Shown: in pieces, positions 36,479 through 37,184 of the stretch
How positions within the stretch are numbered: the stretch's first letter is position 1
Layout: each line of letters opens with the position of its first letter
Origin: Clostridiales bacterium DTU074
GTDB taxonomy: Bacteria > Bacillota > Clostridia > Caldicoprobacterales > Caldicoprobacteraceae
Assembly: GCA_001513075.1 (NCBI GenBank)
Contig: LFSE01000086.1
Span: 1 to 40,874, forward strand
Reading direction: 5' to 3'
Length of the DNA: 40,874 nucleotides
The notes under the pieces: generated by a model
Database searches by the model: none
Told to the model about the DNA's origin: nothing
Seen by the model: the letters and a program-made list of their open reading frames with translations, nothing else
Translations under genes and position numbers: made by a program

Positions 36479-36507
36479 TTGATTTTTTCCGGTTTTTATG
36501 CTACAGT
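36479..36507 (+). promoter_or_regulatory. Promoter of speD
   Basis: -35 TTGATT (36479-36484) and -10 TACAGT (36502-36507) are 17 bases apart. Transcription from here would include the folded leader at 36524-36660. Confidence 0.55.
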
Positions 36508-36523
36508 ATACATCGACATGTAA

Positions 36524-36660
36524 GGTTGTCTTGCGACCATTTTAATACCCACTTAAAGGGTTGGGACATCTGCTGATCTAACCGTCCCGGAGCGGGATGG
36601 GGACCATCGGTTGTACTAACCTTCCCCCGTAAGTGGGCAAGTATTTCAAATAGGGGGGAT
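36524..36660 (+). promoter_or_regulatory. Structured RNA leader upstream of speD, candidate riboswitch or other cis-regulator
   Basis: The leader can fold into several nested stems. A 5-bp hairpin GGTTG/CGACC lies at 36524-36538. P1, CCCACTTA (36548-36555) with TAAGTGGG (36630-36637), is 8 perfect pairs enclosing 74 bases. Inside, GGGAC (36563) pairs with GTCCC (36588) and GGGGA (36599) with TCCCC (36627). Their loops share a similar sequence, ATC-(T/G)-G-(C/T)-TG-..-CTAACC. A third hairpin, TCCCGGAGCGGGA, is an alternative. The 3' part TCCCCC (36623-36628) can also pair with GGGGGA (36654-36659) of the ribosome site, so a switch that hides or frees the site is possible. I do not recognise the class; it is not a SAM-I, SAM-II or SAM-III consensus. 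Confidence 0.6.
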
Positions 36661-36664
36661 TCAA

Positions 36665-37036
36665 ATGGATACTTACTCAAGACATTGCATTTTGGAGCTA
36701 TGGGAGTGTGAAAGAGACCTTTTAAATGATCTGCAGCACATGGAGCGTGTTATTACAGATGCGGCACTGCAAGCCGGTGCGGAAGTACGCGAGGTAGCTT
36801 TTCATCAATTTGCACCTCATGGGGTGTCTGGAGTAGTCATAGTATCGGAGTCGCATTTAGCTATCCATACCTTCCCTGAACATGGATATGCAAGCATTGA
36901 CGTATTCACCTGTGGTAAACGGATTAATCCAAAAAAAGCTGCAGCCATCATTGCTGACAAGTTAGGCGCCAAACGCATATATGAAATGAATGTGGAACGT
37001 GGAACGGGCGAAATGTCCATCGTGGATGATTTTTGA
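36665..37036 (+). CDS. speD: S-adenosylmethionine decarboxylase proenzyme, prokaryotic class 1B
   Basis: The 123-residue proenzyme cleaves itself before Ser63 (VSESHLAIH), making the pyruvoyl group of the alpha chain. Ser63, His68 and Cys83 are all in place, as in the Thermotoga-type enzyme. It makes decarboxylated SAM, the aminopropyl donor for spermidine synthesis. Usual length and a good ribosome site (GGGGGG about 6 bases before the ATG). No speE, speA or arginase gene adjoins it, so the rest of the polyamine pathway must be elsewhere. The gene ends with its own terminator and appears to be a one-gene unit under the structured leader. Confidence 0.96.
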
Positions 37037-37066: not shown

Positions 37067-37109
37067 AAAAGGACTCTGTGCATGAATCTGTTGCATGGAG
37101 TCCTTTTTG
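37067..37109 (+). terminator. Intrinsic terminator of speD
   Basis: AAAGGACTC and TGCA pair with TGCA and GAGTCCTTT in a long stem, followed by TTTTT, starting about 31 bases after the stop codon. Confidence 0.9.
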
Positions 37110-37184
37110 ATATTGTTTAAACCGCCGATTCATTGGGAATAATAGCAAAATAAAATGCTAATTTGAACCTGGAGGTTATTCCCC

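Follow-up and report, generated by a model that had tools for sequence, protein, structure and literature searches.

A conserved structured RNA in the speD leader of Bacillota as a candidate translational switch

The leader of speD, the gene for S-adenosylmethionine decarboxylase, in Clostridiales bacterium DTU074 is a real, conserved structured RNA, and comparison with related sequences excludes chance as its cause. The window that we analysed is the whole stretch of 40,874 nucleotides taken from contig LFSE01000086.1. Our results suggest, with a modest balance of probability in its favour, that this leader acts in cis to switch off the translation of speD in answer to a metabolite of the polyamine pathway, of which spermidine is the most likely.

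Distribution of the leader and its tie to speD

The leader lies between a probable promoter and speD, directly upstream of the gene, and a BLAST search with it gave matches at the equivalent site 5' of speD in other members of the genus, the family and the class. Three forms were found among the loci of SpeD relatives. The window has the long form, found in Clostridia; a short form occurs in Geobacillus, Parageobacillus, Fervidibacillus, Robertmurraya and Bacillus, and Bacillota MAGs have a GC-rich one. The three share one order of elements, namely P1, AAAGGG, a P2 of widely differing length, CCCCCG and the second strand of P1. A covariance model (R1) built from ten sequences was run on 48 loci and then on whole genomes, and a refined model (R2) was used for the window's own class; the E-values of these models are rough. 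The genome searches were made within Bacillota, and statements on lineages rest on family codes and on named SpeD-relative loci. The motif was present in 149 of the 300 sampled genomes of Bacilli, with one copy each, in 25/151 and 4/46 genomes of two further Bacillota classes, and in 11 of the 341 genomes of the window's own class (R2; 13 matches minus two chance matches in coding sequence). Low-scoring model matches inside other genes (L080, L081, L108 and, with R2, L272 and L273) were discarded, and the chance match L108 was left out of the 99 aligned loci.

The motif is located 5' of speD at all of these 99 non-chance loci (98 by script, and L051 by way of the SpeD-relative search through which it was obtained). 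PF02675 was found in all 17 motif-bearing genomes tested, and a match to the aminopropyltransferase (spermidine synthase) family in 31 of 32 motif genomes, so the polyamine pathway is present. Several Bacilli lacking the motif have speD without the leader element, and no SAM-I-type leader was found at gathering scores in its place at the motif-less speD loci. A second speD gene is present in some genomes, and one family has leaders on both copies, one per type.

At locus L074, the motif stands between a gapB-like gene and speD, with nrdR next, and this gene order indicates that the motif is probably present in the Bacillus subtilis group. In B. subtilis, a 79-nt RNA associated with Hfq was sequenced from the interval between gapB and speD (Dambach et al. 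2013, PMC3574147), the same place in which L074, with its order GapB-speD-NrdR, carries the motif. In the part of that paper considered here, it is described as an RNA of unknown kind, with no structure or class proposed. This makes it very probable that the leader is transcribed in B. subtilis, a point on which the original prediction had made the leader depend; the 79-nt RNA and the motif would be the same RNA.

Architecture and covariation of the leader

The features of the leader and of its gene are collected in Table 1. The neighbours of speD in the window are ftsH-like and PBP1A-family genes, and a promoter pair similar to that of the window (TTGATT/TAAAGT) was observed at the matching position in L019. 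Because a probable terminator directly follows speD, the gene is probably transcribed alone. The single terminator-like site, at 36524-36538, is 5' of P1, and scanning of the window revealed no transcription terminator between P1 and speD. An upstream ORF (ATG then TAA, 36518-36523), just past the predicted transcription start, was rejected, as it is not conserved in L020 and L021; this ATG-TAA is present only in the window and L019.

Table 1. Coordinates of the speD leader and its surroundings in the window
Feature	Position	Strand	Basis
Probable sigma-A promoter, TTGATT - 17 nt - TACAGT	36479..36507	+	inferred from sequence reading; under consensus-scan cut-off
Possible outer stem P0, 5' strand AATA (partner 36642-36645)	36544..36547	+	sequence, weak
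P1, 5' strand CCCACTTA	36548..36555	+	P1 covariation
Invariant AAAGGG at the foot of P2, which would compete with the SD for the anti-SD	36555..36560	+	AAGGG in 93/93 distinct aligned sequences
P2, a single long hairpin; internal loops conserved, tip variable	36559..36621	+	pairing in nine long-form relatives; P2 covariation
Invariant anti-Shine-Dalgarno (anti-SD) CCCCC	36624..36628	+	93/93 distinct aligned sequences; variant lineages stay complementary to SD
P1, 3' strand TAAGTGGG	36630..36637	+	P1 covariation
Possible outer stem P0, 3' strand TATT	36642..36645	+	sequence, weak
Shine-Dalgarno (SD) run GGGGGG, complementary to anti-SD	36653..36658	+	at least 5 G in 98/98 motif-bearing speD
speD, S-adenosylmethionine decarboxylase proenzyme, 123 aa	36665..37036	+	TIGR03330 E = 2.1e-40 (over cut-off), PF02675 E = 8.5e-40
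Probable intrinsic terminator 3' of speD (AAAAGGACTC ... GAGTCCTTTTT)	37067..37110	+	sequence reading

The original prediction described a perfect 8-bp stem enclosing two hairpins whose loops share the text ATC-N-G-Y-TG-NN-CTAACC. The stem was found as described (P1), and the shared text is present at 36568-36583 and 36606-36621. On the other hand, the two separate hairpins were not sustained: in nine long-form relatives, GGGAC/GTCCC pairs in 76% and GGGGA/TCCCC in 47% of cells, whereas the pairs of a single long hairpin, GGTTG/TAACC, CTG/CGG and TG/CA, form in 100%. The two-hairpin interior was thus ruled out by its poor conservation, and the complete pairing of the repeats as opposite strands indicates that the two ATC...CTAACC texts are the arms of one hairpin with internal loops, the tip of which is a small variable stem-loop. 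The minimum-energy fold of the window's leader contains the single long P2 hairpin as well. The TCCCCC tract is located at 36623-36628 as predicted, but its proposed alternative partner, the GGGGA of the second hairpin, has to be replaced; since P2 is a single conserved hairpin, the other partner would be the invariant AAAGGG at its base.

In the middle of P2 (36565-36577 and 36605-36614), CATC, GCTG, ATC and GTTG are nearly invariant in the Clostridia long form beyond the needs of pairing, and these positions are perhaps a second recognition site. A longer equivalent of P0, CAATATA/TATATTG, was observed at L003. An outer stem P0 of the GGAACC/GGTCCC type, in which an internal loop (AG versus GACGTA-like) is conserved, is present in L133, L135, L159 and the GC-rich L050-L061 together with a hairpin just before the SD; the Clostridia form lacks these features. 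In the window, AAGTATT at 36639-36645 can pair with GGATACTT (36667-36674), spanning the SD and the start codon, and might thus occlude this leader in a second way.

Covariation, without which the original prediction would not have let the leader stand, is present. Of the cells in 94 distinct aligned sequences, 86.4% are paired, and 255 differ on both sides versus a shuffled mean of 94.7 (sd 8.1). The covariation score was 0.507, compared with 0.210 after shuffling and at most 0.107 with the partner strand slid, and both sides vary in 7 of the 9 pairs of P1. Fitting of the alignment to the covariance model biases it towards structure, but the effect size goes beyond that bias. AAGGG and CCCCC are invariant in 93/93 distinct sequences, in which CCCCCG is likewise invariant and the flanking letters are nearly so. 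By thermodynamics alone, the folding energy of the window's leader is only modestly special (z = -2.0).

Complementarity of the anti-Shine-Dalgarno tract and its variants

The G-run SD noted in the original prediction, GGGGGGA, occupies 36653-36659 and is separated by 5 nt from the speD ATG (36665). An SD with at least five G was found in 98/98 motif-bearing speD genes with a script-placed start, from the 99 aligned loci, and L051, whose start was not placed by script, has an all-G SD too. As a baseline, GGGGG occurred in 23 of 227 ORFs (~10%) of a mechanical ORF set from a Bacillus-like genome other than the window's (nineteen 20-kb stretches plus one of 7 kb). The C-tract's partner SD is therefore itself unusual. 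At motif-less speD loci, a GGGGG SD was present in 0/15 by script, with L044 arguable as its start was misplaced. The distance from the C-tract to the SD at motif loci ranges from 23 to 70 nt.

Two folds of the window's leader were compared. With P1 closed and the SD free, the energy was -50.1 kcal/mol, and with the C-tract on the SD it was -52.0 kcal/mol, the minimum-energy state; the two are near equal in energy and P2 is common to both. The C-tract:SD pairing contributes -13.4 kcal/mol in the window, and several forms reach about -12 kcal/mol for C5-6:G5-6 pairing. An H-type pseudoknot would be sterically possible, with P1 and the C-tract:SD helix formed together.

In the main form, CCCCC, AAAGGG and GGGGG do not vary, so that covariation of the pseudoknot can be read only from variant lineages, which belong to one Bacilli order and its neighbours and represent few independent events. 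In this order and the neighbours, the outer stem, P1 and the pre-SD hairpin are kept and the interior is different. In a first lineage, AAAGGG is changed to AAGGAA and CCCCC to CTCCTC, and the SD from AGGAAGGGGG to AGGAGGGGGG (AGGAA to AGGAG); in a second, found in 144 of the 200 genomes of one Bacilli order, the C-tract TTCCCTC pairs with GGGGGAA. The leaders L232-L261 of that order have a third interior type (CAGGACAT..ATGTTGCGAGAG..TCCCTCG) with a common outer frame. For nearly all variant anti-SD:SD duplexes, the computed energy lies between about -9 and -13 kcal/mol, with a weaker one in L213 (-5.8 kcal/mol). The letters change yet the duplexes are kept, and thus anti-SD:SD complementarity is kept; these lineages can be seen as natural compensatory mutants, in which the anti-SD letters were swapped and the complementarity to the SD was retained. 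This comparison supports closure of the P1 pseudoknot by putative anti-SD:SD pairing. The variants keep the outer stems but not AAAGGG, and the putative pocket is therefore not uniform across lineages.

In L211, L217 and L218-L231, AAGGAA, CTCCTC and AGGAG replace AAAGGG, CCCCC and GGGGG, in some cases on a second speD copy beside the main form. Within the L232-L261 type, the outer frame CCAGGATTCACT..AGTGAATGACGTAGGTCCTAG hardly varies.

Taken together, the conservation, the covariation of P1, the invariant anti-SD with its unusual SD and the complementary variants strongly support the central idea of the original prediction, a folded speD leader able to sequester the ribosome-binding site.

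Proposed control of speD and comparison with known RNAs

As the comparison of sequences shows, P1 encloses AAAGGG, the tip-variable P2 and the C-tract just before its own 3' strand. In the OFF state of the mechanism that we propose, the C-tract would pair with the SD while P1 holds, forming an H-type pseudoknot that excludes the ribosome, and in the ON state it would pair with AAAGGG, leaving the SD free. The ligand would be bound by the conserved junction and the pseudoknot, causing feedback repression. The signal would most likely be spermidine, with which the pathway ends, or a closely related polyamine; decarboxylated SAM, MTA and SAM are alternatives. A metabolite of the polyamine pathway is suggested because of the exclusive tie to speD and the feedback logic; SAM, decarboxylated SAM, MTA or a polyamine is plausible as the ligand, and the metabolite would probably be sensed directly by the RNA. 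The leader shows features that are general to riboswitches, namely a covarying structured 5' leader, an anti-SD inside the conserved domain with a matching SD, and association with speD only.

A polyamine effect may also arise without a dedicated pocket, if polycations stabilise the GC-rich pseudoknot and translation falls as polyamines rise. The strong C:G pairing in the window and in several other forms would suit this, as would the variants, which retain the pseudoknot potential and not the AAAGGG core, and polyamines are known to affect RNA folding broadly (PMC10853860). However, the invariant AAAGGG and CCCCCG with their near-invariant flanks in the 93 distinct sequences exceed the needs of a bare pseudoknot, and we regard this explanation as unlikely. 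Marginally less probable again is a translational operator for a conserved RNA-binding protein, which would recognise the AAAGGG/CCCCC junction and P2 and stabilise the SD-sequestered form. The recovery of the B. subtilis gapB-speD RNA with Hfq (PMC3574147) and the long-P2 paired positions conserved in Clostridia beyond pairing needs are in line with such a protein, but the single-gene tie across Bacillota classes and the very variable P2 tip fit a compact RNA pocket better, and no candidate regulator linked to speD was found within the window. Constitutive tuning, in which a fixed structure sets low translation or protects the mRNA with no signal, is very improbable, for although the SD-sequestered fold is already the minimum-energy state in the window, a fixed block needs neither a conserved competitor AAAGGG, nor two states of near-equal energy, nor complementarity that is kept when the anti-SD changes.

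As for known RNA families, Rfam 15 (4227 families) gave no match in the window at gathering scores and none to the leader at any useful E-value, loose E-values included, and the motifs of the relatives were likewise without a match. This agreed with the original prediction, which saw no match to SAM riboswitch consensus sequences; Rfam was negative for every one of them and for the other families. A sub-threshold match to the azaaromatic (yjdF) riboswitch was observed at L133 864-966 (32 bits versus a cut-off of 45). The genome of the window has an ordinary SAM-I riboswitch (RF00162) on another contig, as the sole match. No published description or name for this RNA (speD motif, polyamine or decarboxylated SAM riboswitch) was found in open-licence papers.

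The SMK box (SAM-III), located upstream of metK in Lactobacillales, switches by anti-SD:SD pairing with a G-rich SD. The speD leader resembles it in that its SD would pair with an internal anti-SD, as complementarity and comparison indicate, but has no match to the Rfam covariance model. It is also similar to the H-type pseudoknots that hide the SD (preQ1, SAM-II/V type), in which P1 is combined with loop nucleotides pairing with the SD, and differs from these in the inserted P2 hairpin, the AAAGGG competitor, the association with speD only and the lack of an Rfam match. Salvail et al. (2023, PMC10853860) reported a spermidine riboswitch, a SAM-I variant with a four-stem fold and a transcription terminator, of which 13 examples are known. 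The two have in common Gram-positive hosts, polyamine biosynthesis genes including speD, and a proposed feedback OFF mode. In contrast, RF00162 matches neither the window nor the relatives, there is no terminator between the motif and speD, a hairpin inside P1 and an SD pseudoknot are found instead, and the motif occurs in hundreds of genomes. Failing both tested defining features of the SAM-I-derived spermidine riboswitch, the speD leader would be a separate class.

Tentatively, and with slightly less than even confidence, we propose that the leader may represent a riboswitch class that is new, very common and unrelated to SAM-I. Its ligand would be spermidine, another polyamine or decarboxylated SAM, and it would control translation of speD by an SD-sequestering pseudoknot in about half of the sampled Bacilli, probably also in B. 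subtilis. Riboswitches that sense polyamines have long been expected, and the literature yielded a single, rare class. The speD-specific RNA described here was apparently overlooked, despite the sequencing of an Hfq-partner RNA from the same gap of B. subtilis. The reading is directly testable in a model organism and, if true, it would show how the committed step of spermidine synthesis is controlled in a large bacterial group.
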